Shown piece by piece: positions 30,070 to 48,378 of a DNA stretch of 49,594 nt; the stretch's first letter is position 1, and the number at the start of each line of letters is the position of its first letter. This DNA comes from Betaproteobacteria bacterium (GTDB lineage Bacteria > Pseudomonadota > Gammaproteobacteria > Burkholderiales > Rhodocyclaceae). The notes under the pieces were generated by a model. The model searched no databases and was not told the origin of the DNA. It saw nothing but the letters and a program-made list of their open reading frames with translations. The stretch is from contig WRMF01000015.1 in NCBI GenBank assembly GCA_009777245.1, positions 1 through 49,594 of the forward strand. The letters are read 5' to 3'. The position numbers and the translations under genes were made by a program.

Positions 30070-30163
30070 TTTATAAGCAGGGCGCGACTCTGTCAATCCG
30101 GTGTTTTTTCCTGCCGACAGCAAATATCGGGTAAGCTCTGCCATCTTCCTGGGGCTTTATCCA

Positions 30164-31168
30164 ATGAATATCCTTCTGACCGGCGGCATGGGCTATATCG
30201 GCAGCCATGTCGCAATAGTGTTGCTAGAGGCGGGGCATCATGTCGTCCTCTATGACAATCTTTGCAACAGCGACGCCGGAGTGCTTGCGCGAATCGCCAA
30301 GATTACCGGCAAAGAGCCGATTTTTATGGAAGCGGATGTCCGTGCGACAAGCACGCTAACCGAAACCTTGAAAAATCACGCAATCGAAGCGGTAATACAT
30401 TTTGCCGGATTGAAGGCAGTAGGCGAGTCGACGCAAAAACCGCTGGCATACTACGCCAACAATGTCGAAGGCACGATAAGCCTGTTGGAATCCATGTCGG
30501 AAGTAGGCATCCGCACTCTTGTATTCAGCGGCAGCGCCACCGTATACGGCGAACCGCAATATCTGCCGCTGGACGAGGCGCATCCCACCTCCGCCACCAA
30601 TCCCTATGGGCGCACCAAGCTATATATCGAAGAAATGCTGCGAGACATCTCCCTGTCCGACCCCTCCTGGCGCATTGTCTCCCTGCGCTATTTCAATCCG
30701 GCGGGCGCACATGAAAGCGGCCTGATTGGGGAAAAGCCGACGGGCGCGCCAAACAACCTGATGCCCTACATGGCGCAGGTTGCGACCGGAGAACTAAAGG
30801 AGCTTTCGGTATTCGGCAACGATTATCCGACGCCGGACGGAACCGGAGTGCGCGACTATATTCACGTCATGGACTTGGCGGAAGGCCATGCGGCGGCGCT
30901 TTCTTGGCTTGCCGGACATTTCGGCTGGCACGCGATCAATCTTGGAACGGGAGAGGGCTACAGCGTGCTGGATATGATAGCGGCTTTCGCCAAAGCCAGC
31001 GGACGCGACATACCCTATCGGATTGCGCCTCGCCGCAAAGGGGATGTTGCCGCCTGCTACGCCGATCCCGGAAAAGCCCTGCGGGAATTAGGCTGGCAGG
31101 CGCGACGCCGCCTTCATGTGATGTGCGAGGACGTCTGGAGATTCCAGAGGCGGTTGCCCCGACCATAG
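30164..31168 (+). CDS. galE: UDP-glucose 4-epimerase
   Basis: 334 residues from the ATG at 30164 (MNILLTGGMGYIGSH). An extended-SDR enzyme that interconverts UDP-glucose and UDP-galactose using bound NAD. TGGMGYIG is the dinucleotide-binding loop, FSGSATVYG holds the catalytic Ser/Thr, and YGRTK is the Tyr-Lys pair. LRYFNPAGAHESG and GTGVRDYIHVMDLAEGH are GalE signatures. The last residues (RFQRRLPRP) depart from the usual GalE ending and stop 3 bp before a dispersed repeat, so the C-terminus may have been trimmed. It supplies precursors for surface polysaccharide. Confidence 0.95.
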   Translation: MNILLTGGMGYIGSHVAIVLLEAGHHVVLYDNLCNSDAGVLARIAKITGKEPIFMEADVRATSTLTETLKNHAIEAVIHFAGLKAVGESTQKPLAYYANNVEGTISLLESMSEVGIRTLVFSGSATVYGEPQYLPLDEAHPTSATNPYGRTKLYIEEMLRDISLSDPSWRIVSLRYFNPAGAHESGLIGEKPTGAPNNLMPYMAQVATGELKELSVFGNDYPTPDGTGVRDYIHVMDLAEGHAAALSWLAGHFGWHAINLGTGEGYSVLDMIAAFAKASGRDIPYRIAPRRKGDVAACYADPGKALRELGWQARRRLHVMCEDVWRFQRRLPRP

Positions 31169-31170: not shown

Positions 31171-31228
31171 GTGCGGTGCGTTGGGGTTCGCGTTCCGCTC
31201 ATCCCAACCTATCGGGCTAACCTACCAG
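31171..31228. repeat. GTAGGTTGGGGTGAGC-type repeat, left border of the AT-rich island
   Basis: GCGTTGGGGTTCGCGTTCCGCTCATCCCAACCTA followed by GGGCTAACCTACC. It lies exactly at the change from GC-rich galE to the AT-rich island. The TAG stop of the LRR gene is supplied by the CTACC end of the repeat. Confidence 0.75.
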
Positions 31229-32109
31229 GCTTTGATGTTTTCTCTCAGATCAGCAAGGTTGTCTCCCTTATGGAGTTCTGCATGCCCTAGGCTGTAATGC
31301 TGCTTTGCCACAATAGCCAAATATTCCAATTTTGGTAGTTTGAGAATATTGTCTAAGTTTCCATCTTCAACTAACGAGTCTCCATTCAGAGTGAGTGCTC
31401 GGAGATTCTGTAATCTTGCAGAAAATTTTAAATCTCTGATTAACCCACAATCGCACAAAGTCAGACATTCCAGTTTGCATAAATTCTTGATTGCTGAAAA
31501 ATCATAAATTTTTTTGCAATTTTCCATGTCAAGCAAACGAAGATTCTCTAATTCTTCAATCTTTGATATGCTCGTCATGTTGCTGAAACGAGCAAGTGAT
31601 AATGAGCGCAATGCTAGTGGTAACGTATTACCCGGCAAACTATCACATTTGCCAGAAAAGATAAGCCCAACATCTACGAGATTTGGGAGTGAGCGAAGAG
31701 ATTTCCAATATTTTACTGGCAGGTTTGCAACTAAGCATTGTAACTCTGCCGCGTCTTCTAACCAGATAATACTCAGCTTTCTAGAAAAGTTTATTCTAAG
31801 CTCATGCAATTCTGGGAACGATCTTAGATTCAATTCACCATTGACTGCTCTGCCAACATAAAGGCGTTGCAAACCGACCAGTGAGTTTACAGGCTCTATT
31901 GATGCTTCTTCCTCTGGCAACAGCGCGAGGGATCTGATTTTCCGCAAACCTCTCAATGCATCAAAGCTACGCCCCTGCCAGCCCTTGGCATAATTGAGCT
32001 CTATAGAATCAATACCAGTTTCAAGAATGAACGAAAGCTCTGCTTTATCAGTTTCGCCTACAACTACGGCCGTAATGCCAAAACCTCGATTTTCCAAGAT
32101 GTACGTCAT
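31222..32109 (-). CDS. Leucine-rich-repeat protein
   Basis: 295 residues without signal peptide or membrane segment. From ~55 onward there are about nine irregular LRR units (LRKIRSLALLPEE, LVGLQRLYVGRAV, LPLALRSLSLARFSNM, ELENLRLLDMENCKKI, LCKLECLTLCDCGLI, LQNLRALTLNGDSLV), of the bacterial cysteine-containing type. Such orphan LRR proteins are common in polymorphic-toxin regions as immunity or recognition proteins, but nothing here proves that role. The gene is AT-rich and enclosed by two copies of the same repeat, so it looks like moved cargo. No strong ribosome site is seen. Confidence 0.75.
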   Translation of the reverse strand: MTYILENRGFGITAVVVGETDKAELSFILETGIDSIELNYAKGWQGRSFDALRGLRKIRSLALLPEEEASIEPVNSLVGLQRLYVGRAVNGELNLRSFPELHELRINFSRKLSIIWLEDAAELQCLVANLPVKYWKSLRSLPNLVDVGLIFSGKCDSLPGNTLPLALRSLSLARFSNMTSISKIEELENLRLLDMENCKKIYDFSAIKNLCKLECLTLCDCGLIRDLKFSARLQNLRALTLNGDSLVEDGNLDNILKLPKLEYLAIVAKQHYSLGHAELHKGDNLADLRENIKAW

Positions 32110-32132
32110 AATAGACTCACTTGTTATTTAGC

Positions 32133-32287
32133 CCGGTAGGTTGGGGTGAGCTTGCGAACCCCAACATTCGGGGAAGAAAACAATCGCACTGGCATGACAG
32201 TTTGACCATGAGGAGATGAGGCGCATTTTATCATCGTAGAATGGCGAAGTGTTGGGGTTCGCGTTCCGCTCACCCCAACCTACCGGT
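32133..32287 (+). repeat. GTAGGTTGGGGTGAGC-type repeat, full ~150-bp unit
   Basis: Ends GGTAGGTTGGGGTGAGCTTG and CGCTCACCCCAACCTACC are inverted copies of each other. The interior includes GGCATGACAGTTTGACC and TTTTATCATCGTAGAATGG, shared with 33487-33642 and, inverted, with 11395-11520. No transposase is encoded, consistent with a MITE or REP-like unit moved in trans. Confidence 0.85.
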
Positions 32288-32292
32288 CTCAA

Positions 32293-33198
32293 TTAAAAGT
32301 TGAAAGAACAAACAAAAAGTGATTTGCTATCATCAATTGGAAAAATGTATGGGACTCCAAATTCTTGCTGAAACTCTGAAGCAGTAGCAACTTGAAACCT
32401 TTTTCCAGTCTTTCTGAAAATAGCATCTGATAATGTGTGTGCGTTGGCTAAAATAACAACGGAGTACTCAGAACCATAAGTAGGTATCAGCATTTCATTA
32501 GCATCTAATCCATAAAACTTTTCATTAATGGTAAAATATGCGTATTGTAAATCATCTTTATATTGTGTATAGCCAAGTTTTTCCAGAATGCCTGTATTTG
32601 ATCGTTTACTCTCCGTGTCATAGTAAAACATCAAAGGCAAACATGTCTCTGGCCTTTGAAAAAAAATCCACTCTAGCCAATTTGGAACAACTTTTCCATC
32701 TTCTGAGATCAAGGTTTTGTCGTCAATTGAAACCAGATTCCAACAAGCATCGGTCTTCTCGAAATTGTAAAATATTTGCTGCTTGTCACTTTTGATTGCT
32801 ATCATCTCCTGATAGCTTTTATCACCAGATAGTGGCTCCGGCAAATCACGTAAAAGCTCACTGTCAATACCATAGGCATCAGCACTGAAAGACTCAATTT
32901 GCAAATCTCTGTCTTTCCTTTCTTTCTTTGGTGGTATAATAGGAAAATGGTCGTCTTTTTCCTCTAACAGCAATATTACTTTCTTTGCATCATATTTGCT
33001 TTTAAAATCAAATCGCATCTTTTTTAAAGGAAATTTTGTGAATTTTCTTTGGACATTAGCATCTTCCATGAATACCTTTATAAATTGATGGAAATACAGG
33101 GACGGGCAAGCAACATCCGCACTTCTGCTGTCAGAAGCGGCAGCAAGTCCGCTGACCAAGACGGACAACAAAATCCCTGCGTAAATCATGCACTTCAT
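32293..33198 (-). CDS. Secreted hypothetical protein
   Basis: 301 residues from the ATG at 33198, chosen because a signal peptide follows directly (MKCMIYAGILLSVLVSGLAAASDS). Several in-frame ATGs lie upstream to 33303 and the true start is uncertain. The mature protein begins with CPSLYFHQFIKVFMEDANVQ...FPLKKMRFDF; this F-x2-F-x2-F...Q...FPL pattern is reminiscent of DUF4348-like secreted domains, a weak resemblance. The second half (YNFEKTDACWNLVSIDD) is globular. AT-rich, enclosed by full repeat units at both ends. Function unknown. Confidence 0.65.
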   Translation of the reverse strand: MKCMIYAGILLSVLVSGLAAASDSRSADVACPSLYFHQFIKVFMEDANVQRKFTKFPLKKMRFDFKSKYDAKKVILLLEEKDDHFPIIPPKKERKDRDLQIESFSADAYGIDSELLRDLPEPLSGDKSYQEMIAIKSDKQQIFYNFEKTDACWNLVSIDDKTLISEDGKVVPNWLEWIFFQRPETCLPLMFYYDTESKRSNTGILEKLGYTQYKDDLQYAYFTINEKFYGLDANEMLIPTYGSEYSVVILANAHTLSDAIFRKTGKRFQVATASEFQQEFGVPYIFPIDDSKSLFVCSFNF

Positions 33199-33486
33199 GC
33201 AAGATTCAATAATCATTTTCGATATTTCCATCATTCTCATTTCAATCACCATCCGCATCTTGGGAAGCTGTTTGGTACGAGAACAACAAAAAACCGCGCA
33301 CACGCGCGCAGAACGCTCTGTGCATAGGCATAGATATTGCTGCCATCAAAAATTGTGTCGGTCATTTCCAACCTTGTCAAGAGGGTTTACAAACTTTTCC
33401 TGCCGCCTTGTTTTGTCGCTCTGCGGAACATGTCGCCTAAACTTGATGACCATACCTTCCGCTCGCTCTCAAAACGAGTTGCAGCG

Positions 33487-33642
33487 CGGTAGGTTGGGGC
33501 GCGCTTGCGAACCCCAGCATTTGGGGAAGAAAACAATCGCATTGGCATGACAGTTTGACCGTAAGGAGATGAGACGCATTCTATCATTGTAGAATAGCGA
33601 AGTGTTGAGGTTCGCGTTCCGCTCACCCCAACCTACCGCGCT
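33487..33642 (+). repeat. GTAGGTTGGGGTGAGC-type repeat, full ~150-bp unit
   Basis: Nearly the same sequence as 32133-32287: GGTAGGTTGGGGCGCGCTTG at the left, interior TGACAGTTTGACCGTAAGG, and CGCTCACCCCAACCTACCGC at the right. Together the two units bracket the secreted-protein gene in direct orientation. The gap 33199-33486 upstream of that gene shows no further gene. Confidence 0.85.
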
Positions 33643-33658
33643 ATGGGCATTTGTCATT

Positions 33659-33889
33659 TTATTGTAAATGCCATGCAGCAAACGCATAAGCAAACAAATT
33701 CGCCAAAATAAAGTACCCATTCCAACTTTCAGACATCATCACAATCGTATAGGATGGAATAGTAAAAGCATATATCCCTGCGAATAGATATAACAATATA
33801 TTATATTTTGTACCAACCAGCCGCACACAATGATTTATCATTACAAAGGGAGTCAGCATGAGCATCATGCGGAAAGCATTATGTAACAT
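33659..33889 (-). CDS. Truncated small membrane protein, paralogue of 35976-36449
   Basis: 76 residues, almost entirely hydrophobic. LMLTPFVMINHC-x-RLVG and LFAGIYAFTI...SWNGYFILANLFA match the middle of the protein at 35976-36449 (LMLTPFVMINHCGRLVG, LFAGIYAFTILPYT, GWNGYFILMNLFAS). The N-terminal helix and the soluble C-terminus of that protein are missing, so this is a truncated copy. The DNA around MLMLTPF (CATTACAAAGGGAGTCAGCATGAGCAT on the plus strand, in two parts) is still identical. It may or may not be made; it starts 3 bp after the upstream gene. Confidence 0.55.
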   Translation of the reverse strand: MLHNAFRMMLMLTPFVMINHCVRLVGTKYNILLYLFAGIYAFTIPSYTIVMMSESWNGYFILANLFAYAFAAWHLQ

Positions 33890-33891
33890 TT

Positions 33892-34431
33892 CTATTGTAC
33901 CTCGTTTTGGGCAGACAAGCGATTTTTTTCGTCATCTTCAATCATTACGATTGTTTTATCGACTGTTTTCTTCAACGCACGTTTTCCAATTAATCCAATA
34001 GAATCTTCCAAATCATCTTCAATAAATGTTAATATAATCACAAAGGCTTCAATCAATATCCCTTCCGGCTTGATTGAAAATTTGAAACACTCCCCATCGC
34101 GATAGTAAACAATTTCATCACCATAACTCAATATACGATAGCCACTTGTACGCAGAAAATTATCAATAAGGTCTCCCATTTTTGCAAAATCACCAGAAAA
34201 CTTTATAATCTTTGCAAACCTACTTCCTTTTGATGCAGTTCTCGTTCCGCTTTTAATCTGATACCCTCTTATCATTATAGGTAAAAACGGAATAATTGTC
34301 CAAAATGGAACTAGAGCTATTTTTGTAGGAACAAAAGGGACATCAGACAATAAGGATAGTACGCAAAAGACATATATAAGCGCGAGACCTGAGTATCCCA
34401 AAATCTTAATCAATAACCTTAAAAAATTCAT
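33892..34431 (-). CDS. Unrecognised membrane-anchored family P, copy 2
   Basis: 179 residues from the ATG at 34431, with AGAGGGG 8 nt upstream. Two N-terminal hydrophobic segments (~8-26 and ~38-55) are followed by a soluble domain: KGSRFAKIIKFSGDFAKMGD, then SYGDEIVYYRDGE, then FKFSIKPEGILIEAFVIIL. The same motifs in the same order occur in the gene at 34451-34882, so the two are tandem paralogues. The soluble domain probably faces the cytoplasm. I do not recognise the family; in such arrays small paralogous membrane proteins are often immunity proteins, which is inference. Confidence 0.7.
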   Translation of the reverse strand: MNFLRLLIKILGYSGLALIYVFCVLSLLSDVPFVPTKIALVPFWTIIPFLPIMIRGYQIKSGTRTASKGSRFAKIIKFSGDFAKMGDLIDNFLRTSGYRILSYGDEIVYYRDGECFKFSIKPEGILIEAFVIILTFIEDDLEDSIGLIGKRALKKTVDKTIVMIEDDEKNRLSAQNEVQ

Positions 34432-34450
34432 GGCGCATACCCCTCTGGAA

Positions 34451-34882
34451 TCAAGTATCAATTTCATTTGTTTCGATCATAACGATGATCTTGTCGACAA
34501 TTTTCTTAAGCGGTACTTTTACTGCAATTCCGACAAAACCATCCAAATTCATCTCTCTGAAAAAAATCACAAATGCCTCAATAAAAATTCCTTCTTGAAC
34601 TCTTGAAAATTTGAAGAATTGAGATGAGGCTATCATTCCACTACCACGCCGATATATGGTTTCATCACCATAGCTCTGTTTATGGAAGCCATTCGCCGTC
34701 AGAAAATCATCAATAATATTGGTGATTTTTTCAAAATCACCAGAGAATTTCACAAGTTTCGTAAACCTGCTCCCCTTCGGTGCGGTTCTCTTGCCTCTAT
34801 TAATCTGGCTCTGCCTTACCATCAAAGGAATCGAGTAAATAAACCCGACTGCCAGAATAAAAATTAGAATTGAATTAGTCAT
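34451..34882 (-). CDS. Unrecognised membrane-anchored family P, copy 1
   Basis: 143 residues. One N-terminal membrane segment (ILIFILAVGFIYSIPLM, ~5-21) and then the domain shared with the next gene: PKGSRFTKLVKFSGDFEKI, QSYGDETIYRRG, FKFSRVQEGIFIEAFVIFF, and a C-terminal VPLKKIVDKIIVMIE that matches ALKKTVDKTIVMIE downstream. The start ATG overlaps the stop of the module protein at 34879-35934 as ATGA, so the two are translated together, the arrangement expected of an effector and its partner. Function unknown. Confidence 0.72.
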   Translation of the reverse strand: MTNSILIFILAVGFIYSIPLMVRQSQINRGKRTAPKGSRFTKLVKFSGDFEKITNIIDDFLTANGFHKQSYGDETIYRRGSGMIASSQFFKFSRVQEGIFIEAFVIFFREMNLDGFVGIAVKVPLKKIVDKIIVMIETNEIDT

Positions 34883-35934
34883 GATATCTCCAACGCTAAG
34901 TTTTTCAATTCATCGGGTGCGCTACCATTTCGCATGCCAATGGCAAACAAGTATAACTCCTTGCATCGAGCATTTTTATCAGCAAGCAGTATTTGCTGAG
35001 CAATGAAAACGACAAGCCATGTTATAAGAGAAACTAGAGCAGCAATCACTACAAATACATTTGCAGCAAAAAGAGCTATTGTCAGCAAAGCAAATATCGT
35101 TAGCATATCAGCGATAGCAATACCAACTTGATCTGCGTCACTCAAACCCATCAGTTCTTGATACTGGTAATTTGCAAGAATAGCCAAAACAACCATTAAC
35201 CATCCCGCTAACGCTCCAACCGTGACAACAACAGCGGCAGCGGCGGCAGCAGCAGCAACAGCTACGCTCAGTATTGATAAACTTATAGCAAAAATAGCTG
35301 CTGATACAAAGCTACCATGTTCGACTATCCATTTATCAAATTCCGACATCTCCCCCCCATTTCCACTCCCTTCGAGGATATATCCACCTGCCCCGGTATC
35401 AGGATCAATTATTGTGTAGGCATAACCCGTCCAGCCATGCGCCGTGATTGGCTTTTCATGAATCGTCACCTCCTTGCCAGCCTGTACAGCGTTTCTCACC
35501 TCTTGACCAAGCGCGCCTGTAATCGGCAATCTGGGTAGGGCTGCTGCCGCATTCTCCCTTGTTAGCGTGTAAATCCTTTGACCCTGTTGTTGCGCTATGG
35601 CAAGCGCCCTCACCGCAGATATAGCCTGTGTACAGTCCTCTGCGACTGGATTCTGAATCTGCCCTTCCCCGTCAATGTACCGGCACTGGCTCTTGTCCAC
35701 CCAGAATTGCTCCGGCACAACAGCCTCCTGCAAACTCATGTACTGACCATTCTGACGGTTATACGCCTGCCAGCGCGTCTGCGCTCCAGTCTTGTTCCCC
35801 TGCGCCATGCCTTGATTGATTGCCGACCCCGGATCATCGTCTTTCACCCAACGAATAGCACGAATTTGACCAATGCGACTACCTCCGCCAGATAAGGCGG
35901 ATAGGCAAAAACGAAGAACGGTCAGAGCGAGCAT
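34879..35934 (-). CDS. Duplicated-module protein with membrane C-terminus, copy 1
   Basis: 351 residues from the ATG at 35934; the frame is open further upstream. Residues ~28-194 are the module shared with 36464-37363: RWVKDDDP-x-SAINQGMAQG, RQNGQYMSLQEAVVPEQFWV, AISAVRALAIAQQQGQ, YTLTRENAA, then HEKPITAHGWTGYAYTIIDP and GAGGYILEGSGNGG. From memory the GW-G-GY...DPDTGAG ending occurs near the C-terminus of transglutaminase-like/RHS-type secreted proteins, just before variable toxin domains. Here the variable part (~200-351) has four membrane segments, including an Ala/Val-rich one, unlike copy 2. The original N-terminal carrier is absent, so this looks like a displaced C-terminal cassette. 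Confidence 0.65.
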   Translation of the reverse strand: MLALTVLRFCLSALSGGGSRIGQIRAIRWVKDDDPGSAINQGMAQGNKTGAQTRWQAYNRQNGQYMSLQEAVVPEQFWVDKSQCRYIDGEGQIQNPVAEDCTQAISAVRALAIAQQQGQRIYTLTRENAAAALPRLPITGALGQEVRNAVQAGKEVTIHEKPITAHGWTGYAYTIIDPDTGAGGYILEGSGNGGEMSEFDKWIVEHGSFVSAAIFAISLSILSVAVAAAAAAAAVVVTVGALAGWLMVVLAILANYQYQELMGLSDADQVGIAIADMLTIFALLTIALFAANVFVVIAALVSLITWLVVFIAQQILLADKNARCKELYLFAIGMRNGSAPDELKNLALEIS

Positions 35935-35975
35935 GGGGTAGTTTCCAAGGGTGAACAAGGTGATGGCATGAGCAT

Positions 35976-36449
35976 TCATGTGGCAAGCATCACTGCCCAG
36001 TACAAATATAAAACCCAAGGCCCAACAAACGCTGCTAATACCCCCCACCATAAAAAATCATAATCCCGAGTGCATTTCGGTGGAAATTCTCTAAAGCTGC
36101 CCCACCTTTCAAGAGGAACCTGCTCCGCAAAAAACTCAGAAATAGAGTCTATTCTTAGAGCAAAATATCCAGAAGCAAACAAATTCATCAAAATAAAGTA
36201 CCCATTCCAACCTTCAGATATCATTACACCAGTATAGGGCAGAATGGTAAAAGCATATATCCCAGCAAATAGAAATAACAATTTACTATGCTTTACACCA
36301 ACAAGCCGCCCACAATGATTTATCATTACAAAGGGAGTCAGCATGAGCATAGCTATAATAGGCGTCAATATGCATAACCTCAGATCCCATACCTGAGTCC
36401 CTACAGTCGATAGGAGTGAGATTATGTACAAAATGACAATATCAACCAT
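35976..36449 (-). CDS. Small membrane protein, full-length paralogue
   Basis: 157 residues from the ATG at 36449. A GTG at 36464 overlapping the previous stop (TAGTG), or an ATG at 36515, are alternatives. Four membrane segments (VDIVILYIISLLS, LCILTPIIAMLMLTPFVMI, LLFLFAGIYAFTILPYT, YFILMNLFASGYFAL) are followed by a soluble stretch with a cysteine and a terminal hydrophobic WWGVLAAFVGPWVLYLYW. Partial copies are at 33659-33889 and 38631-38948. It sits between the two module proteins and may be the partner of the upstream one. The 178 bp at 36291-36468 are identical to 38790-38967. No family is recognised. Confidence 0.68.
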   Translation of the reverse strand: MVDIVILYIISLLSTVGTQVWDLRLCILTPIIAMLMLTPFVMINHCGRLVGVKHSKLLFLFAGIYAFTILPYTGVMISEGWNGYFILMNLFASGYFALRIDSISEFFAEQVPLERWGSFREFPPKCTRDYDFLWWGVLAAFVGPWVLYLYWAVMLAT

Positions 36450-36463
36450 AACCAATCCAATCA

Positions 36464-37363
36464 CTAAATCATCGACAGCAATTGAGCAAACATTATCCCC
36501 AACCATTTTACGCACTCCGCTATCGGTACTTCTCCCCCAGCCGGGAACATACCAAGCAGAGCCCCTGCCGCAGCTGAAGCACTTGCTTTAATAAACTCAT
36601 GTTCTGTTTGCGCCTGACTAACGCTACGAAGCCACAAAAAGTAATTAATAAGCTCTAATCCAATCAGAATCGCGATCCACATAGCCGCCAACCCTGAAGC
36701 CCAAATAAGAGCTATCGCAATACCAATCAAGATAGGCACTATCAACCAACCAAAGTAAAATTCTGTGGGAGTCAATAATTCTGCCCCATTCCCGCTCCCC
36801 TCAATGATATACCCTCCAGCCCCGGTATCCGGGTCAATTATCGTGTAGCCATAGCCAGTCCAGCCGTGCGCCGTGATGGGCTTTTCGTGGATCGTCACTT
36901 CCTTGCCAGCCTGCACTGCGCTCCTGATCTCCTGACCAAGCGCGCCTCCTATAGGCAGTGTGGGTAAGGCCGTCGCCGCATTCTCCCTCGTTAGCGTGTA
37001 AATCTTCTGCCCCTGTTGTTGCGCTATCGCCAACGCCCTCACCGCCGAGATTGCCTGAGCGCAGCCCGCCAAGGCCGGATTCTGAATCTGTCCTTCTCCG
37101 TCAATGTACCGGCACTGGCTCTTGTCCACCCAGAACTGCTCCGGCACAACAGCCTCCTGCAAACTCATGTACTGACCATTCTGACGGTTATACGCCTGCC
37201 AACGCTTTTGCGCCCCGGTCTTGTTCCCCTGTGCCATGCCTTGGTTGATCGCTGACCTCGGATCATCGTCCTTCACCCAGAGGATACTACGCATATGACT
37301 CATGCGACTACCTCCGCCAGATAAGGCGGATAGGCAAAAACGAAGAAAGGTCAAAGCGAGCAT
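36464..37363 (-). CDS. Duplicated-module protein with membrane C-terminus, copy 2
   Basis: 299 residues from the ATG at 37363; a second candidate start (MSHMRS) 60 bp later has a perfect GGAGGT 6 nt upstream. Residues ~28-194 are nearly identical to copy 1 at 34879-35934 (WVKDDDP, MSLQEAVVPEQFWVDKSQC, HEKPITAHGWTGYGYTIIDP). After GSGNGAE the sequence is entirely different: two membrane helices (FGWLIVPILIGIAIALIWASG, MWIAILIGLELINYFLW) and a short helical tail with AAAGALLGMFPAGGEVPIAE. A constant module with a replaced end is the hallmark of polymorphic-toxin cassettes, but a membrane-type end is unusual. Its gene end abuts the next membrane gene. Confidence 0.65.
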   Translation of the reverse strand: MLALTFLRFCLSALSGGGSRMSHMRSILWVKDDDPRSAINQGMAQGNKTGAQKRWQAYNRQNGQYMSLQEAVVPEQFWVDKSQCRYIDGEGQIQNPALAGCAQAISAVRALAIAQQQGQKIYTLTRENAATALPTLPIGGALGQEIRSAVQAGKEVTIHEKPITAHGWTGYGYTIIDPDTGAGGYIIEGSGNGAELLTPTEFYFGWLIVPILIGIAIALIWASGLAAMWIAILIGLELINYFLWLRSVSQAQTEHEFIKASASAAAGALLGMFPAGGEVPIAECVKWLGIMFAQLLSMI

Positions 37364-37659
37364 GGGGAAGTCCCTTGAACGCAATCTTTCGACATGTGGA
37401 TCATTTCTATCATGCATCAATCCATAATGCCTGCATGGTAACACAAATGAGCGATTGACAGGGATGAAAACACAGGCACGGTAGAAACCGTATTTCCAGG
37501 CGTAGAAACCGTACCCCCCACTCCCCAACTGCAATGCCGCATCAGCATTTCATCTCCCAGCACATCGTGTGCCTGTGATCGGCAGCCTAAGGAGCGCTGT
37601 CGCCGCATCATTGAGATCGCTACGGTATAATCCATGACTCCTTTCTCATCTTCACTTGA
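37364..37659. other. Gene-free interval upstream of module copy 2
   Basis: About 300 bp without a supported gene. A direct repeat of GTAGAAACCGTA occurs at 37480-37491 and 37502-37513, a possible operator or promoter element for the minus-strand module gene. I found no clear -35/-10 pair. Confidence 0.35.
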
Positions 37660-38244
37660 TTATATGCCATCAAAATTGTACCTGTGAAAATTTTTCAGCC
37701 ACATCATTATCCACTGTAGTCCGCCTGGGATAGTAACAAAAGCAAACGCCGTAAAACAAAACCATTGAGCCAATATAGATTCACATAGAAAATCATCCAC
37801 TTTCAATATAGGAATAAAATAGAAAAGTACAGGAGGACACAAACATATAGCTGCCATACATAAATAGTGCCTGAGCTTTAATCTCCTCGCTTCTACTTCA
37901 ATAATTAGCCAACTCTCATAAAGGCGAGCAAAACGTTTGTTAGTTGCAAACAAAAAAATATAAATCGGCATCATTGTCCACGCAAATGCTAAAAGAATGG
38001 CGGTCTTTTCAGGGTATGCAGACATCTCGACATTGGCATGAAAAGACGGGACAGTTGCATCAATAAAGGCAACAATAATCCCAACAACATACGCATTCTC
38101 AAGAATATTTGATGGCTCCCACAATGAAAATACAAATGAAACCAATATAGGTATCCAAAACAATGGTTTAACGTACACAGAATCAGGCGAAAACTCATCA
38201 AGAGAATCTAATAAAGCCTTTGATTCGAGTTCGTCAAGCGACAT
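37660..38244 (-). CDS. Integral membrane protein, unknown
   Basis: 194 residues from the ATG at 38244, which has AAGGAG 6 nt upstream; an ATG at 38283 lacks one. About five membrane segments: LFWIPILVSFVFSLW, AYVVGIIVAFIDATV, TAILLAFAWTMMPIYIFLFA, YLCMAAICLCPPVLFYFIP and WFCFTAFAFVTIPGGLQWIMM. Short acidic N-terminus (MSLDELESKALLDSLDEF). AT-rich like its neighbours. Not recognised. It stands between a small membrane protein pair and module copy 2, all on the same strand, and may be a partner gene of a lost cassette. Confidence 0.68.
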   Translation of the reverse strand: MSLDELESKALLDSLDEFSPDSVYVKPLFWIPILVSFVFSLWEPSNILENAYVVGIIVAFIDATVPSFHANVEMSAYPEKTAILLAFAWTMMPIYIFLFATNKRFARLYESWLIIEVEARRLKLRHYLCMAAICLCPPVLFYFIPILKVDDFLCESILAQWFCFTAFAFVTIPGGLQWIMMWLKNFHRYNFDGI

Positions 38245-38295
38245 TTTAGACTCCTTCTCATCGTGATGTTTGTTCGGTTTCATTGAGTTTATGCC

Positions 38296-38634
38296 CTATA
38301 TCAAGAGCGCAATGCAAAACCCGACAGAAAAATAACAAAAGACTTCACCTTGATCAATCCTCAGCAAATTAAGCCATGATATTTTAATGCGGTATTTATT
38401 TATAATCATAAATTCAATAGTTCCCATAGGAAGCAAGAATACTATAATAACACCTATAAGACCATCTGGGTGAGGCATTCCAAGAAAACTCCAAGTCAGT
38501 CCAGAAGCAAACCCAAAAATTGACATTGTCAATATAGCCAAAACTTCTGCAAGTTTTACATGCCTGTTGCGATATACGACATATAGAATCAACGGCACAA
38601 TTATTAATATAGCCAACAAAACCTCTGCAATCAT
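38296..38634 (-). CDS. Small integral membrane protein, unknown
   Basis: 112 residues from the ATG at 38634, which overlaps the stop of the preceding gene as ATGA. Three to four hydrophobic segments: VLLAILIIVPLILYVVY, VLAILTMSIFGFASGLTWSFL, GVIIVFLLPMGTIEFM and a C-terminal FCYFSVGFCIALLI. Not recognised. Coupling to the chimeric membrane protein upstream suggests the two are co-produced. Confidence 0.63.
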   Translation of the reverse strand: MIAEVLLAILIIVPLILYVVYRNRHVKLAEVLAILTMSIFGFASGLTWSFLGMPHPDGLIGVIIVFLLPMGTIEFMIINKYRIKISWLNLLRIDQGEVFCYFSVGFCIALLI

Positions 38635-38948
38635 ATGTCCACCCATTCATTTATCTGCCTGACAATCAGAGTAACCACTAACGCACAAACAACAGCAAGA
38701 AAAACTCCAAGAGCAATACCAGCCGGTCCCATAAAAAAGGTCCCAGGAAAAGTGCTAGTTGCATCGAGGCTATTTTCCTGCCTACTATACTTTACACCAA
38801 CAAGCCGCCCACAATGATTTATCATTACAAAGGGAGTCAGCATGAGCATAGCTATAATAGGCGTCAATATGCATAACCTCAGATCCCATACCTGAGTCCC
38901 TACAGTCGATAGGAGTGAGATTATGTACAAAATGACAATATCAACCAT
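38631..38948 (-). CDS. Chimeric small membrane protein, paralogue with replaced C-terminus
   Basis: 105 residues from the ATG at 38948; a GTG at 38963 is an alternative. The first ~50 residues (VDIVILYIISLLSTVGTQVW ... INHCGRLVGVK) are identical to the protein at 35976-36449 because the DNA is identical over 178 bp. After GVKYS the sequence switches to an unrelated end (DATSTFPGTFFMGPAGIALGVFLAVVCALVVTLIV) with one strong membrane helix. This is a recombination chimera. The sharp boundary at ~38790 marks the crossover. Confidence 0.62.
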   Translation of the reverse strand: MVDIVILYIISLLSTVGTQVWDLRLCILTPIIAMLMLTPFVMINHCGRLVGVKYSRQENSLDATSTFPGTFFMGPAGIALGVFLAVVCALVVTLIVRQINEWVDI

Positions 38949-38984
38949 AACCAATCCAATCACTAAAACATTGACGTCAGCATC

Positions 38985-39055
38985 GTAGCGCGGTAGGTTG
39001 GGATGAGCGGAACGCGAACCCCAACGTCTTTGCTGGCGTTGGGGTTCGCGTCGCC
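38985..39055. repeat. GTAGGTTGGGGTGAGC-type repeat, right border of the AT-rich island
   Basis: GCGCGGTAGGTTGGGATGAGCGGAACGCGAACCCCAAC followed by GCGTTGGGGTTCGCG (written as separate arms). A short two-armed copy lacking the 95-bp interior. With 31171-31228 it encloses the whole AT-rich cluster. Confidence 0.75.
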
Positions 39056-39463: not shown

Positions 39464-41248
39464 CTATACATAGCAGCAAATATGATCCGTAAACTCTGGT
39501 ATATCCCTGTCCGGGTTTGCGGCAAACGCCTCTATCGCGTATTCGAGTATCTCCCCTGGATCGCCGCTGTCGCGGCTTAGCTTCTTCCATCCCGTGTCAG
39601 AATCCAGACGCTTCGACCAGGCGCGCGCCCATAAGCCGGAAGGCGTCCGCTTCACGTATCCAAAGGCGTTGTTGTTCGCCCGGAAAGGAAGAATGACGGG
39701 AGTAAAGCCAGCGGGCATTACTTCGCCATCCACACGTATAACACTTGCGGACTCAACAAGCTCGCCGCCCGAACCCGTCAGATATAGTTGATCTATCCGA
39801 CCGCTCCTTTCAACCATAGTCTCCTTAACCTTCTCGCAACAGACAACAGGGCCTCCATCGTCCAAAGCAAGGCTATATTGAGTAACCTCTTCCTCCTCAA
39901 TGCGAATAATACCTGGCGCGCTACCAAAGACAGCATTGACAGGAAGCATGACCGGTAACAAGGAATCCTCTCGAAAGTGATAAATCTGATAGCCAGTAAT
40001 ACAATACCCGCCATCTTCATGCCAGGTCACGCAGTTACTGTATTCCGAGCCGGAGAATCCCTCTATCGTATATGTACCTTCGCCAAACCCAAGCGTCACC
40101 ATGCCAATTTTTGCGCTGACTGCCTTTATAAGCTCAGTCTGGATAACAGCATGGATTTTTTGCGGCATCCCTCCAGACAACACATGACCAAGCATCAGGA
40201 ACCTGTTTTCCCGACGACGCTCCACGCCTGAAATAACCGGTATCGCCTGGAAAATACTATAGTAATTATTATTTACCAGATACCTGCCCGCGCCTTCTCC
40301 GCCGTGAATGCACGTCACCGGAACGTCTACATAATAGTATGTAGTGACGGTCAGAGAGCGGTAATGTTCCACGTAATAATCGCTAAATTCTCTTCTCACA
40401 GCATCCTGTATCTCATACACATTGCTGTTTTCATTTAACACCGGCCTGAAGTGCGTGTCTCTTCCCGCCGGGACATACTCGAAAGTTATCAGAAGTCCTC
40501 CTTCCACAACCTCAGGGGTAATCACATATTCAAACATGGATATGTGAATCTCCGCCATCAACGGCTCGGCTTCGTCATGGAACGTCTCCGGCTGTTTGTG
40601 TATCTTATCGTAATCCACTCTTTCCGCCCTTGCCTGCATTGCGGCTCCGCTGCCGGACAGGCGTATAGAGAAAGCGTCCGTCACCTTGTGCAGCAACATG
40701 CCGCCTTCCGAGACGAGAGGAGCGAGCGCGAATGTCGCCACGCTGCCGTCCTCGGAGATGTCGTCTATCCTGAAGCTCGCGCCGCCATAAGGATAATCCC
40801 CGCCAAGCGGGATAAGGTACTCTTCCGGCTCTGTCAGGAATACTCCAAACCGTACCGCCTTGATCTGCGCCTGCCAGCCGGACGGCGGTATCAAAGACAT
40901 CAGCCATATTTCAGGAGCGCGACTGCCAATAACGCCCCTTGCCGCATAAAGCCATGAGGCTGTCGGCAATCCCACGCCCGCCATTGCAAGGCGGTTCGCG
41001 CTCATCTTGTATAGCCTTGCGTAATCAAGCAGAAGTCCATTCTCCGGCGTCTCCATACCCGGCCCTGGCGCGCCCGGCACACGCAGCGTAAAACAATCGC
41101 CGCCGGGGATGAACTCCTCGGCCTTGTCCGCGACTATCTCGCCGTTGCCGGTGTCTATAGTTTGCGTCTGGCTGTCGTAAAAGCCGTGGCGTAACGTCCC
41201 CCAGGCGCGGGCGCTGCTTTTGGACGGAAGAAGCATCGGGATAGGCAT
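39464..41248 (-). CDS. Prophage structural protein, tail region, unknown
   Basis: 594 residues, the last gene of the prophage tail module in this window. No signal peptide or membrane segment. It is mostly beta-rich with many Gly/Pro turns (LPSKSSARAWGTLRHGFYDS, GTYTIEGFSGSEYSNCVTWH, GGELVESASVIRVDGEV). It starts just after a dispersed repeat, with no obvious ribosome site left. Position after the hub-like gene suggests a tail-tip or fibre-associated protein. I do not recognise the family. Confidence 0.72.
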   Translation of the reverse strand: MPIPMLLPSKSSARAWGTLRHGFYDSQTQTIDTGNGEIVADKAEEFIPGGDCFTLRVPGAPGPGMETPENGLLLDYARLYKMSANRLAMAGVGLPTASWLYAARGVIGSRAPEIWLMSLIPPSGWQAQIKAVRFGVFLTEPEEYLIPLGGDYPYGGASFRIDDISEDGSVATFALAPLVSEGGMLLHKVTDAFSIRLSGSGAAMQARAERVDYDKIHKQPETFHDEAEPLMAEIHISMFEYVITPEVVEGGLLITFEYVPAGRDTHFRPVLNENSNVYEIQDAVRREFSDYYVEHYRSLTVTTYYYVDVPVTCIHGGEGAGRYLVNNNYYSIFQAIPVISGVERRRENRFLMLGHVLSGGMPQKIHAVIQTELIKAVSAKIGMVTLGFGEGTYTIEGFSGSEYSNCVTWHEDGGYCITGYQIYHFREDSLLPVMLPVNAVFGSAPGIIRIEEEEVTQYSLALDDGGPVVCCEKVKETMVERSGRIDQLYLTGSGGELVESASVIRVDGEVMPAGFTPVILPFRANNNAFGYVKRTPSGLWARAWSKRLDSDTGWKKLSRDSGDPGEILEYAIEAFAANPDRDIPEFTDHICCYV

Positions 41249-41260
41249 GTCAGTGGGCCT

Positions 41261-41318
41261 GTAGGGGCAGACCTATGTGTCTGCCCGACATAGGGCGAAC
41301 ACACAGGTTCGCCCCTAC
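41261..41318. repeat. GTAGGGGCAGACC-type repeat, copy B
   Basis: GTAGGGGCAGACC arm, spacer GACATA, and GGGCGAACACACAGGTTCGC arm ending CCCCTAC. It lies between the stop of the 98-residue gene and the start of the 594-residue gene. Confidence 0.88.
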
Positions 41319-41356
41319 GGTCTTCTGATCCCTGTCCACTGATTTCTGTACTCTGT

Positions 41357-41653
41357 TCATGATTCCGGGGCGGCGAAGCGCAGGTATTCGCCGAACTTGC
41401 CGCTTACCAGGCGGATTGCCGGAAACCAGAAAATGCCGTCGGACGATACAAATCCTCCCGTGTGCCATTGCCGTTCCAGAACGCTCTGTTCCTCGAAGAA
41501 CGTCCCGCCGCCGCCTTGTCCGCCGCTGGTCGGAGAATAAGCCTCGCCTATCCTCGTCGGCACGTTGGCTTTGGGCGGGCGCGGCATATCCTGACTACGC
41601 TCCGAAGGAGCGTCGCCAGCGGTGCGGCGGATAAGGTCGGTCAGACTGGACAT
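41357..41653 (-). CDS. Prophage hypothetical protein
   Basis: 98 residues from the ATG at 41653 (MSSLTDLIRR); the upstream open frame translates repeat DNA. A short basic N-terminus, a Gly-rich turn (SGGQGGGGTFFEE) and a compact C-terminal part (FVSSDGIFWFPAIRLVSGKFGEYL) look like a small beta protein of the tail tip. Unrecognised. Repeats stand immediately upstream and downstream of it. Confidence 0.62.
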   Translation of the reverse strand: MSSLTDLIRRTAGDAPSERSQDMPRPPKANVPTRIGEAYSPTSGGQGGGGTFFEEQSVLERQWHTGGFVSSDGIFWFPAIRLVSGKFGEYLRFAAPES

Positions 41654-41671
41654 ATCAGTGGTCAGGGTTCT

Positions 41672-41750
41672 GTAGGGGCAGACCTGTGTGTCTGCCCAAC
41701 ATAGGGCGAACGCGCCCCGACATAGGACGAACACACAGGTTCGCCCCTAC
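41672..41750. repeat. GTAGGGGCAGACC-type repeat, copy C
   Basis: As copy B but with an additional 21-bp internal partial duplication (CGAACGCGCCCCGACATAGG). Its right end supplies the TAG stop region of the gene at 41750-42205. Confidence 0.87.
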
Positions 41751-42205
41751 TACGCATTGAGTTCTTCCAGCAGGTCTGTGTATATCCTGAAATAATCCAG
41801 GCTGCCATGCGTCCAGCTGCGGAGGGCGACGTTGATTGCGATTGCGTTCCCGACCCCGCCCTGAATCATGCCGGGCAGGGGAAGCTGACCGGAAAACAGG
41901 TCTTCATCGCCCGGCGCATAATCCTCCGCCAGACAAAAGAGAATCTCCGCCGAGCTCAAAGACGGCGGCCCGTATATCGCGCCCGGGTTTGCGCGATTCC
42001 AGCCGTCCCAGTCAAATTCGCCGTACAGGTAGATCGCGGAATTGCCGTTGGCGTCTACCCATTTCCTGTCGCTGTCCGGGGAGCCAAGGTAAATGACCTT
42101 GTTGCTGTCGGCAAACCGTCCCTCAACGCCGGACAGGTGCAATCGCTCCAGCGGCGTCGTAAGGGCGGCGTCTTCGTAAAATTTGATTGAAAGCGCGTCT
42201 GACAT
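41750..42205 (-). CDS. Prophage hypothetical protein, tail region
   Basis: 151 residues from the ATG at 42205, with AGGAG 8 nt upstream, the best ribosome site in the tail module. KFYEDAALTTPLERLHLSGVEG and later LGSPDSDRKWVDANG, then LPLPGMIQGG and INVALRSW suggest a beta-sandwich, as in small baseplate or tip proteins. Not recognised. It lies 32 bp after the hub-like gene, the only junction here without a dispersed repeat. Confidence 0.7.
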   Translation of the reverse strand: MSDALSIKFYEDAALTTPLERLHLSGVEGRFADSNKVIYLGSPDSDRKWVDANGNSAIYLYGEFDWDGWNRANPGAIYGPPSLSSAEILFCLAEDYAPGDEDLFSGQLPLPGMIQGGVGNAIAINVALRSWTHGSLDYFRIYTDLLEELNA

Positions 42206-42237
42206 GGTGTTCTCCTGTTGTAAATCCGGTGAAAAAA

Positions 42238-44403
42238 TCAAATCCTGACGATTGCCTCGATGTCGGCCGTGGCCGATTCCGGCAGTTCCGGCAGGGTGCA
42301 GGCGGCCTTGCCCACAGATTCAGACTGGGGGTCATGGTCGTAGGTGAAGCGGGCGGCGCTGCGATAAATCGAATCCGGCACGCGCTGGTCGGTAATGACC
42401 GGCGCGGATATGTCTCCGGCGGCGGAAACGGTAATGCCGGTGACGGCGGGCGCGGCAAGCGCGGTAATCTCCGCCACTGCCCGTCCTGATTCCGGCGACA
42501 ACAAAAACGTCAAGCCGGAAATAACGCCGGAAGCCGAAACCCTGCCGTCGGAAACCGTTATGCCCTTGCCCAGGTCAATAGCCGGATCGAGCGGGACGGT
42601 AAAGCTGATCTGCCGTCCTCCGGCTCTGGCATCCGCCAGATGCGCCCTCGCCACTTGCCGGAAAGCCGCCGCAAAGGCGGCGCGGGCATCATCAAAGGTC
42701 GTTCCCCTGCTGGCTTTTGCGGGCGCGGGAGCGGCGGCAGAGCCTGTTGCCCCGCCTGTTCCTCCGCCGGTTATGATTCCTGTTCCCCCGCTCCCGCTTC
42801 CGCCCCCTGTAGAGCCGCCTGTTATGATGCCTGTTCCTCCGCCTGTTCCTGTAGGGCGGTAAATGCCTGCGAAGTCTTCAACAGGGCGAAGCGATTGGTT
42901 TTTGTCCGCCGAGGCAAGCCATGAACGTTCTTCCCAGGCGTTTTCGTCCTGTTCGGCTGCGGTCATGCAAATCTCGGTGACTTCCGGTTTTTTGCCGGAT
43001 TGGCCGACGACGGTAAATTCCCGCTCGTATTTCACCGTGACCGCCCGGCTGAACGGAACCAGCAATGTGCCGGATACTCCCAGGGCAAGTCCTTCCCGGT
43101 TCGTCCATGAGAACACATGCCCGAAATTCCCGCCGGTTCCGGTTCCGTATGCGCCGGAGGGCGGGGTGAGGGCATATGTAATGTTCCTGATTGACGCGCC
43201 GGTCGAGCTTATCGCGTCCTCCACCACTCCGACCGGCAACAGCCAGTTGCCCCAGGCGATGAAATTGCCGAAGCTCTGACCGGGCTTAAGGAGCGAATGC
43301 GAGAGCGAATAATGCGCGGCGGCGCGGACAGAATACCGATAGGAAAACACCAACTTTCTGGCGGCGGACAAGCCCCGACCAGCCTCGACGACAAGGCTGC
43401 CGTCCTCGACTTGCCCCGCGGGATAATCAATGCCAGGCAGAGCGTTCCATGATGTGACGCGAGGCTGTCCCGACGCGGTCAATGACAGGGATTTTGCGGT
43501 GGTGGAGAGTAAATCCATAGCCCGCTGCCAGCCGATTGAGGCTTCCGCGTTGAAGATGTTCTCCGACCATGCGCCGCCGATAAGGGCGTCTATTGCCGCG
43601 TTCGGCATCGCGTCCATTTTGTCGCGCAGACCGTCCGTAGCGGTGAGTTTTACGGCGGAACGGGCGGACTCGTAACGCGCAGTATCTATAACTCCGGTAA
43701 AGAGCCGGTAACGCTCTTCTCCCTCCGGCGGGCGAAGCGACACAATGAGCGGCAGATTGGCAAGGCTATCCGGCAAAATCCGGCGGCTGATGGCAAGGTC
43801 GGCAATGCGGGCGGCGTCCTCACCGGCCTCAATCCGAATATCCCCGATAATTTCCGGCGTGACATCCGCCCCGCCAAGCATGATTTCAACGCGCCATAAG
43901 CCTGCCGCTATGCCGAGGCCGGGATTTACGCCGCCGCCCGCGCCGCCGCCGGTGATGGAGCCTGGCGGGAGCGGCGCGGCAGAGGCTGATACCGTAACCA
44001 TGACTTCCGCCCAACCTGTAACCCTGGCGGCGATGGCAAGCGTGACCGGCAGGGACGCCTGCGAGATGATACGCGGCGGCAACGCCAAAACGTCAATGGA
44101 AACCGGCAGTTCAGGCTCGACAAATTCATAAGTGCGCTCATACGACCAGACTGTTACCGGCAAAACCAGCGGCATCCTCCCCACCCTCACATCCACGGAT
44201 ACCGGAATTTGCGCGCGGATGCCCTCATGGACTGCTATGGATACCGGAATTTTCGCCCTCACGCCATCAGGGACGGAGACGGAAACCGGCAGGTACGCCC
44301 GGCCAGGAGCCGCCTCGACCGTGACCGAAAGCCATGCCTGAAACTCCCGACAGTCAATGACCGTAATGGAAACAGGCGCGAGGGCGGTAAGCCAGCGTCT
44401 CAT
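42238..44403 (-). CDS. Prophage tail hub/tip-like protein
   Basis: 721 residues from the ATG at 44403 (MRRWLTALAP); the longer frame translates repeat DNA. Residues ~10-145 contain six or seven imperfect beta repeats marked by PVS/PVT (LPVSVSV, IPVSIAV, IPVSVDV, LPVTVWS, LPVSIDV, LPVTLAI). A Gly-rich stretch follows, then a body with LFTGVIDTARYESARSAVKLTATDGLRDKMDAMPN, which resembles the domain arrangement of phage hub proteins. A Gly/Thr/Ser hinge of ~45 residues (~545-590) links to a C-terminal domain (FTVPLDPAIDLGKGITVSDG). Hub assignment is by pattern and position, not by a diagnostic motif. Confidence 0.62.
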   Translation of the reverse strand: MRRWLTALAPVSITVIDCREFQAWLSVTVEAAPGRAYLPVSVSVPDGVRAKIPVSIAVHEGIRAQIPVSVDVRVGRMPLVLPVTVWSYERTYEFVEPELPVSIDVLALPPRIISQASLPVTLAIAARVTGWAEVMVTVSASAAPLPPGSITGGGAGGGVNPGLGIAAGLWRVEIMLGGADVTPEIIGDIRIEAGEDAARIADLAISRRILPDSLANLPLIVSLRPPEGEERYRLFTGVIDTARYESARSAVKLTATDGLRDKMDAMPNAAIDALIGGAWSENIFNAEASIGWQRAMDLLSTTAKSLSLTASGQPRVTSWNALPGIDYPAGQVEDGSLVVEAGRGLSAARKLVFSYRYSVRAAAHYSLSHSLLKPGQSFGNFIAWGNWLLPVGVVEDAISSTGASIRNITYALTPPSGAYGTGTGGNFGHVFSWTNREGLALGVSGTLLVPFSRAVTVKYEREFTVVGQSGKKPEVTEICMTAAEQDENAWEERSWLASADKNQSLRPVEDFAGIYRPTGTGGGTGIITGGSTGGGSGSGGTGIITGGGTGGATGSAAAPAPAKASRGTTFDDARAAFAAAFRQVARAHLADARAGGRQISFTVPLDPAIDLGKGITVSDGRVSASGVISGLTFLLSPESGRAVAEITALAAPAVTGITVSAAGDISAPVITDQRVPDSIYRSAARFTYDHDPQSESVGKAACTLPELPESATADIEAIVRI

Positions 44404-44418
44404 GGGCAGAATACGGAA

Positions 44419-44497
44419 GTAGGGGCGAACCTGTGTGTTCGCCCGATGTTGGGGCGTGTTTGCCTGATGTTGGGCAGACACATAGGTCTGCCCCTAC
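44419..44497. repeat. GTAGGGGCAGACC-type repeat, copy D (opposite orientation)
   Basis: Begins GTAGGGGCGAACCTGTGTG and ends GGTCTGCCCCTAC, with a doubled GATGTTGGG spacer. It lies between the stop of the 158-residue gene and the start of the hub-like gene. Confidence 0.88.
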
Positions 44498-44515
44498 AGG
44501 CTGACCACTGATGTC

Positions 44516-44992
44516 TCATATCTCCTCCGCTATCAGTTGCCATGACCATGAGGCGTTGTTGCGGTCGAAGGTCTCGGTAGGGCGCAGCAGAAACACCTCA
44601 AAGACAGGGAAATACATGGTCAGGGTTTCGGCGGCGTCCGGCCTCACCCCTTCAAACACTCGTCCGTCCGGCATGATTGAGACCCGCCATGTCGCAGCGT
44701 CCGTCCGGTGCGGCGGCAGGATTGCGGCGCGGCTCGACCTTGGCTGGACGCAATACAGGGATACGCTCTGGTTATAGTTCAAATCCGCCAGGGCGGAAGG
44801 AATCAAGCCCTGGCCTCTGGTTATGATCCTCGTCCTTTCCCATGTCCGCTGCATGATCGCCCCGCCGTCGGCGGCGCGAAACAACGCCTCGCCGCCTAAC
44901 GGCTCGTAGTCCTGGGTCAGGCTCTCCAATGAGCCGACAAACGGCGCGACAATACCGCCGATAATGAGACGCGGAGAACGATCAGACATCAT
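44516..44992 (-). CDS. Prophage hypothetical protein, tail region
   Basis: 158 residues from the first of two adjacent ATGs (44992, 44989). A beta-rich protein: RLIIGGIVAPFVGSLESLTQDYEPLGG, then WERTRIITRGQGLIP, VSLYCVQPRS and MYFPVFEVFLLRPTETFDR. Its place between the tape measure and the hub-like gene suggests a distal-tail-type role, but no motif proves it. Repeats lie on both sides, and the ribosome site appears displaced by the upstream one. Confidence 0.65.
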   Translation of the reverse strand: MMSDRSPRLIIGGIVAPFVGSLESLTQDYEPLGGEALFRAADGGAIMQRTWERTRIITRGQGLIPSALADLNYNQSVSLYCVQPRSSRAAILPPHRTDAATWRVSIMPDGRVFEGVRPDAAETLTMYFPVFEVFLLRPTETFDRNNASWSWQLIAEEI

Positions 44993-44998
44993 GGGTCT

Positions 44999-45077
44999 AT
45001 AGGGGCGAACCTGTGTGTTCGCCCGATGTTGGGACGTGTTCGCCCGATGTTGGGCAGACACACAGGTCTGCCCCTAC
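44999..45077. repeat. GTAGGGGCAGACC-type repeat, copy E (opposite orientation)
   Basis: TAGGGGCGAACCTGTGTG at the left and CAGGTCTGCCCCTAC at the right, with a GATGTTGGG spacer present twice. It starts one base after the stop codon of the tape measure gene. Confidence 0.88.
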
Positions 45078-48200: not shown

Positions 48201-48378
48201 GACTTACCCCAAAACAGAAATCATCGTCGGCGTCATTTGCGCGCTCCTGCCATGCCTCGCCTTTTTCTGGCCAGCGGTTGTCCTGTGGGCGATAGGCGCG
48301 GTTCTGCTCATCGCTATCTTCTCTAACCGTGACAGGCTCTTTATAGCCCTGGCCATCCTGTTCGGCGCCACAAGCTGA
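48199..48378 (+). CDS. Small two-helix membrane protein antisense to the tail module
   Basis: 59 residues from the ATG at 48199 (MTYPKTEIIVGVICALLPCL) with GGAGG 6 nt upstream. Two hydrophobic segments (~8-27 and ~28-42) and a third at the end (LFIALAILFGAT), with a basic SNRDR turn. Its ATG overlaps the tape measure ATG on the other strand. It fills an otherwise unexplained 197-bp gap in the tail module. Holin-like size and shape, but holins seldom sit here; it may be a moron-type gene or spurious. Confidence 0.42.
   Translation: MTYPKTEIIVGVICALLPCLAFFWPAVVLWAIGAVLLIAIFSNRDRLFIALAILFGATS

Follow-up and report, generated by a model that had tools for sequence, protein, structure and literature searches.

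Among described systems, those closest to the locus reported here are polymorphic toxins whose transglutaminase domain is inactive (Zhang et al. 2012, PMC3482391). In the passages of that survey cited here, they carry a signal peptide followed by a transglutaminase domain that has lost a catalytic residue, end in varied C-terminal toxins, and come with immunity genes and standalone cassettes. The abstract of the survey reports many enzymatic toxin domains and names one pore-forming domain (PMC3482391). Our subject is an array of genes in contig WRMF01000015.1 of a Rhodocyclaceae genome, a 2.15-Mb draft assembly of 43 contigs that is 93% complete; positions 1-49594 of the contig make up the window, i.e., the whole stretch of 49,594 nucleotides (nt) that was analysed. 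We consider it very likely that the array belongs to a polymorphic toxin system and stores orphan cassettes of it, keeping spare, membrane-inserting toxin tips together with their immunity genes.

Orphan cassettes of other constitution have been described. In the MafB/MafI islands of Neisseria, a full-length toxin gene is followed by truncated C-terminal cassettes with immunity genes, of which some possess a start codon while others are silent (PMC4287609); the constant part in our case differs in being a transglutaminase carrier, and the tips are mostly membrane tips. CdiA-CT and Rhs orphan modules are likewise C-terminal toxin modules with immunity genes (PMC3150448, PMC3967940). The toxins EsxX (PMC12744356) and TelE (PMC10434224) have a C-terminal toxin with a glycine zipper, which the membrane tips of our case may resemble, but they belong to the LXG proteins that Gram-positive bacteria secrete by the type VII system, and EsxX also has the soluble immunity ExiAB.

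Results

The genes T1 and T2 (Table 1) share a module and differ in what follows it: the last 125 module residues are 89% identical and the tips 24%, with an abrupt divergence directly after GGYI[IL]EGSGNG. At the DNA level the modules are 81% identical over 300 nt, and a comparison of 174 module codons gave 0.726 synonymous (dS) and 0.068 nonsynonymous (dN) substitutions per site, a dN/dS of 0.094, from which we conclude that the module has been kept as a protein. Both genes are 5'-truncated, and Pfam finds no transglutaminase domain in either. The ORF (open reading frame) of T1 as listed begins upstream of the likely start ATG 37303, which is preceded by GGAGGT, and T1 is probably a 279-residue protein; 62 nt of its leader are 95% identical to the T2 leader. 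Since T2 has ATT (35874) at the position of the T1 start codon, it may be silent or start elsewhere, for example at ATG 36051.

Small genes lie directly behind the tips. M2 is the next gene of T1, and Pb overlaps the T2 stop codon by 4 nt. Pa and Pb are 50% identical (dN/dS 0.171, dS 1.8). The DNA common to M2 and M3 extends over 193 nt at 98% identity, with no synonymous and one nonsynonymous difference in the 60 codons of the N-terminal part. The copied DNA in M3 (38783-38975) also takes in sequence corresponding to the last T1 codons, from which we conclude that a T1-M2 cassette was duplicated and that the duplicate is now cut near the repeat. A stretch of 181 nt in M1 is 87% identical to M2, with a dN/dS of 0.52, and we regard both M1 and M3 as what is left of a duplicated cassette. 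No identical array, a finding that the earlier note had named as contrary to its proposal, was seen in distant relatives: the P family had matches in none of 148 other genomes and the M family in none of 99, which is what one expects of fast-changing immunity genes.

Full-length carriers of the module occur in relatives. With T2 as query, matches were found in 7 of 199 genomes of the family, the own genome included; four of the six outside it lie in open frames of 1,013-1,116 amino acids (aa), and of the two weakest matches (E 4.5e-4 and 8.7e-4) one is a short piece and the other probably due to chance. A scan of named genomes matched Ottowia sp. oral taxon 894, four Acidovorax records and one Zoogloeaceae metagenome-assembled genome (locus L014). 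At loci L009-L012 the module is part of open frames of 1,077-1,313 aa and stands shortly ahead of their C-terminal end. Transglut_core (PF01841) was recognised in all four of these compact carriers, and also at L049, L098, L099 and L101. The L009 domain aligned to the solved putative cysteine protease 3isr (E 1.2e-4) with GNATD on GVCRD, and the position of the Cys, which we take to be the catalytic residue, is occupied by Ala or Ser in every module-bearing frame in which the motif was recognised (23 of 23). In the carriers a variable tip comes directly after the module and is followed by a small, usually membrane, gene. Signal-like N-termini were seen by eye in genome G596, which belongs to the same genus (L049:6505-7527, at a contig end), and at L051:3644-5779. 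A search for a PDB match to the module of ~240 residues found none.

Membership of the carriers in three described groups was considered and rejected. As to plain Rhs proteins, Pfam detects no RHS families in the four compact carriers or in L049; they were found only in the distant carrier L101, which has Transglut_core, DUF6531, 18 RHS stretches and an Ig-like match below the cut-off, while L098 has DUF6531. As to CdiA, the Pfam scans of the carriers gave neither the two-partner secretion domain of contact-dependent inhibition nor filamentous repeats, a CdiB gene not having been searched for. As to MafB, its N-terminal domain (DUF1020, for which Pfam presumably holds a model) is seen in none of the four carriers, where Pfam gives Transglut_core and one match below the cut-off. 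Upstream of the carrier in L009 lies a 1,549-aa gene (3054-7700) with IgGFc_binding and carboxypeptidase-regulatory domains, and with IPTL-CTERM and terpene-cyclase-like segments that are both below the cut-off; it is a possible surface partner of the toxin, and large ORFs resembling it by eye also precede the carriers in L010-L013.

The distribution of the module was surveyed with an alignment of ten modules (A1) as query, which gave matches in 5 of 20 genomes of the genus, 13 of 399 of the order and 17 of 369 of the class, the own genome included each time. Tandem orphan copies are frequent among module-bearing genomes. In genome G600, from the same genus, there are three units, each composed of a module, a distinct tip and a distinct small membrane gene, and a long frame occurs together with shorter copies in L010, G953 (a 1065-aa frame besides six short ones, of which one is broken by a stop within the match) and G619 (frames of 1023, 703, 677 and 391 aa). 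In genome G953 (L089, L090) we also note seven module copies within 2.2 Mb, three with clearly related tips. At L053:2047-3111, a transposase-like gene interrupts a module-tip gene just past the module boundary.

Statistics on the tips cover 50 complete module copies, in 26 of which the frame upstream of the module is shorter than 200 aa (six of the 50 frames are open at the sequence edge). Two or more hydrophobic segments are present in 42 of the 50 tips, and few tips are related to each other. A small next gene was called for 47 copies, within 60 nt in 39 of them, and tip and next gene co-vary across copies. The anchor for reading these tips as toxins is L093, whose tip contains a NucA/NucB DNase (E 3.8e-14) and whose next gene is SMI1_KNR4/SUKH-1 (E 5.4e-9); the carriers are thus not housekeeping proteins, whereas a module confined to such proteins is what the earlier note had named as refuting its proposal. 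The tips of L097 and L100 contain DUF6310, of unknown function, and the next gene of L100 contains DUF5953; the other long tips scanned (L092, L011 and L055), and likewise L095, gave nothing above the cut-off in the family scan. Hydrophobic stretches lie ahead of the matched domain in L093, L097 and L100, so the helices may aid entry in these three, and in the other tips they may be the toxin itself. The array could also be made of ordinary small membrane proteins, in transport or signalling, duplicated by chance, and indeed none of the small genes scanned, LRR apart, belongs to a known family above the cut-off. Such proteins would not be expected to show the sharp boundary between module and tip, the DNase with SUKH-1 in the same place in a relative, or the co-variation of tips with next genes; we rejected this explanation and regard it as extremely improbable.

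Two further observations concern the surroundings of these copies. Several small genes near tips, identified by eye, combine CPxC...CxxC zinc-ribbon-like motifs with membrane segments (Table 1) and are a possible recurrent immunity type. Truncated carriers are preceded by a leader of ~170 nt (L048:10843-11014, L048:13686-13857 and L049:2928-3099), for which two species of the genus show 70-72% identity. The leader contains TGCTATCAT, which may be a promoter and would then allow the truncated carriers to be expressed.

The eleven ORFs of the array lie on the minus strand between galE and a prophage tail module. In steps of 1 kb, G+C is 0.37-0.50 over 31-39 kb and 0.51-0.64 in the remaining steps, except for 0.46 at 11-12 kb. 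The low values belong to the tips and small genes (0.35-0.45), whereas the T1 and T2 modules have 0.54 and 0.58. Across the surveyed copies mean G+C falls from 0.552 in modules to 0.447 in tips and 0.383 in next genes, with the tip below the module in 46 of 50 copies and the next gene below it in 46 of 47. The AT-richness of the array is thus explained by its consisting mostly of tips and small genes. Family scans gave nothing above the cut-off for X1, X2 and S; these three genes and LRR are candidate immunity genes by position only. LRR repeats are among the genes listed for polyimmunity loci (PMC3482391, in the passages cited), for which reason the LRR gene is a candidate immunity gene.

A 33-nt repeat, which we call REP-like on the assumption that this label applies, has copies at 31180, 32251, 33604 and 38993. 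Allowing up to three mismatches there are 12 copies in the genome (contigs C3, C4, C5, C8, C9, C15 and C16), four of them inside the array, i.e., in 7.9 kb of 2.15 Mb, which is far above an even spread; a reversed control pattern gave none at the same tolerance. Of the element at 32119-32300, 156 nt recur at 33483-33638 with 92% identity. A search for a Y1 transposase to go with the repeat found none.

The inventory of the array given in the earlier note agrees with these data: eleven AT-rich minus-strand genes in GC-rich surroundings, bounded and punctuated by one repeat family, including two constant-module proteins with exchanged C-termini, three related membrane proteins (one chimeric, one truncated), two tandem family-P paralogues and an LRR protein. 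Its secreted protein corresponds to the gene S, which is present, while secretion is suggested by a signal-like N-terminus judged by eye.

The neighbourhood raises the question whether the array is cargo of the adjacent prophage, serving lysis, superinfection exclusion or another phage purpose, as its position beside the tail module might indicate. The T2 module, however, is unmatched in 50,697 phage records, PHROG matches none of the three array proteins tried (T1, S, X2) and PADLOC none of nine tried out of eleven, the module copies of relatives sit in transglutaminase carriers, and array and phage differ in G+C. We therefore rejected phage cargo, which appears very unlikely. The 594-aa protein nearest to the array (39464-41248) likewise has no PHROG or PADLOC match.

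Table 1. Features of the array and its flanks in window coordinates, followed by zinc-ribbon-like genes at other loci
Feature	Position	Strand	Description
galE	30101-31168		flanks the array at the LRR side
REP-like repeat	31173-31218	-	outer boundary beside galE
LRR	31222-32109	-	Pfam LRR_4, E 1.9e-7; candidate immunity gene
Pair of inverted REP-like arms	32119-32300	-	arms ~116 nt apart; includes the copy at 32251
S	32293-33303	-	336 aa; signal-peptide-like N-terminus, judged by eye only
REP-like repeat	33597-33642	-	internal copy
M1	33659-33889	-	truncated M2 copy, probably decaying
Pa	33892-34467	-	Pb paralogue; second predicted immunity gene
Pb	34451-34882	-	one N-terminal hydrophobic segment and a soluble part; predicted T2 immunity
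T2	ORF 34879-36051, listed part 34879-35919	-	module 35353-35919 and 157-aa hydrophobic tip 34882-35352
M2	35976-36464, ORF open to 36515	-	membrane protein; predicted immunity gene of T1, may overlap T1
T1	ORF 36464-37534, likely gene 36464-37303	-	module 36782-37303 and 105-aa hydrophobic tip 36467-36781
T1 leader	37304-37371	-	similar to T2 leader
X2	37660-38283	-	207-aa membrane protein; candidate immunity gene by position only
X1	38296-38646	-	116-aa membrane protein; candidate immunity gene by position only
M3	38631-38963	-	chimeric membrane protein: first half near-identical to M2, second half unrelated
REP-like repeat	38986-39026	+	outer boundary beside the prophage; strand opposite to the other three full copies
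Prophage or phage-like tail module	39464-49562		tape measure, tail assembly chaperone, major tail protein; runs to the window end
Zinc-ribbon-like small genes	L048:16143-16589, L051:2416-2871, L059:5784-6155		near tips
Zinc-ribbon-like next genes	L089 copies 5899 and 7619, L090 copy 4799		next to tips

Discussion

We read T1-M2 and T2-Pb-Pa as orphan cassettes, each pairing a toxin with its immunity, from a compact branch of inactive-transglutaminase polymorphic toxins that lacks RHS repeats. The parent protein of relatives is composed of a probable signal peptide, a catalytically dead transglutaminase-like domain, a coiled region, the conserved pre-tip module of ~240 residues and an exchangeable C-terminal tip, with the immunity gene behind it. 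T1 and T2 are 5'-truncated copies in which roughly the final three quarters of the module remain, and this part would provide the homologous sequence needed to recombine with a full-length gene. Each tip would have its own immunity, M2 for T1, and Pb with Pa for T2. The most likely mode of action is that a delivered tip would enter the inner membrane of a competitor, form a glycine-zipper-like helical bundle there and cause depolarisation, and that the membrane immunity protein would block the tip in the inner membrane. The module with its truncation and purifying selection, its abrupt border with diverse tips, the small genes that adjoin the tips and co-vary with them, and the toxin and immunity domains in the corresponding place of a relative are seen in the sequences; export, delivery, pore formation, immunity function and the recombination role of the orphans are what we infer.

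The toxin/immunity cassette store suggested in the earlier note is supported by the long carriers in relatives and by the short module-tip copies beside long ones. Several findings weigh against our reading. The long protein with the same module that the note recommended seeking exists in relatives, as frames of ~1,000-1,300 aa; with the L009 protein or the G596 N-terminus as query, no parent was found in the own assembly. Several module matches of relatives lie at contig ends (e.g., G590:C6, G590:C104, G601:C218, G681:C8), so that an assembly gap is possible as the cause; loss is equally possible. The His of the motif EHxxPE is present in 35 of 37 module copies read, and the two without it are T1 and T2 (sites ~36990 and ~35560); it may be a functional module residue, or one from which the orphan lineage has been freed. 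The motif F-x-x-[YF]-P-P-[KR] is common, by eye, to M2 and the next genes of L072, L082 and L092, and the result for L092 counts against the pairing of T1 with M2. Finally, the note's claim that the ends are membrane-spanning rather than enzymatic agrees with 42 of 50 tips, while some tips of relatives are enzymatic.

The absent parent and the lost His would also suit a dead remnant, i.e., a system lost from the lineage whose decaying cassettes lie beside a prophage, and so would the fragments M1 and M3, the dN/dS of M1, and the missing ATG in T2. The frames of T1 and T2 are open, however, T1 has a good ribosome-binding site and start, and dN/dS is low in the T1/T2 module as well as in Pa/Pb, although this selection may predate the loss; we judge a dead remnant unlikely. 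The start and ribosome-binding site of T1, again with the absent parent, could also mean that the orphans act by themselves inside the cell, as toxin-antitoxin-like or membrane stress modules, and are not spare tips of an exported toxin; Salmonella RHS elements are reported, in the part of the source cited, to work as toxin-antitoxin modules (PMC7043789). A free toxin should not need a module retained under purifying selection, however, and relatives have short copies beside long ones, so that self-acting modules, too, seem rather improbable.

The array's kind is not wholly uncharacterised, which the earlier note had considered possible, since a survey of 2012 already describes polymorphic toxins with inactive transglutaminase (PMC3482391). 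The distant carrier L101 fits the published description by its RHS stretches, DUF6531 and Ig-like match. The compact carriers depart from it, having no RHS and the tip directly after the module, and we therefore regard them as a variant of the known kind. Most tips here are membrane-spanning, whereas the cited passages name one pore-former, Tox-WTIP (PMC3482391), whose motif Wx[ST]IP occurs in none of 51 tips. We found no description of the compact branch in the open-licence literature, as represented by titles and the beginnings of abstracts.

Conclusions

We put forward tentatively, and with somewhat less than even confidence, that these systems form a distinct, widespread and apparently undescribed branch with RHS-less carriers, mostly membrane-depolarising tips and membrane immunity partners, and that in this organism the orphans persist without a parent under selection as an immunity reserve and as recombination donors. 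As so many tips are predicted to cross the membrane two or more times, the branch comprises many candidate toxin-immunity pairs acting in one compartment, and it offers a way to study how a membrane toxin is recognised by a membrane immunity protein. Genome G953 is a good place for seeking tip exchange between strains. The orphan array itself raises the question whether such cassettes are spare tips for recombination, serve immunity, or are used inside the cell.

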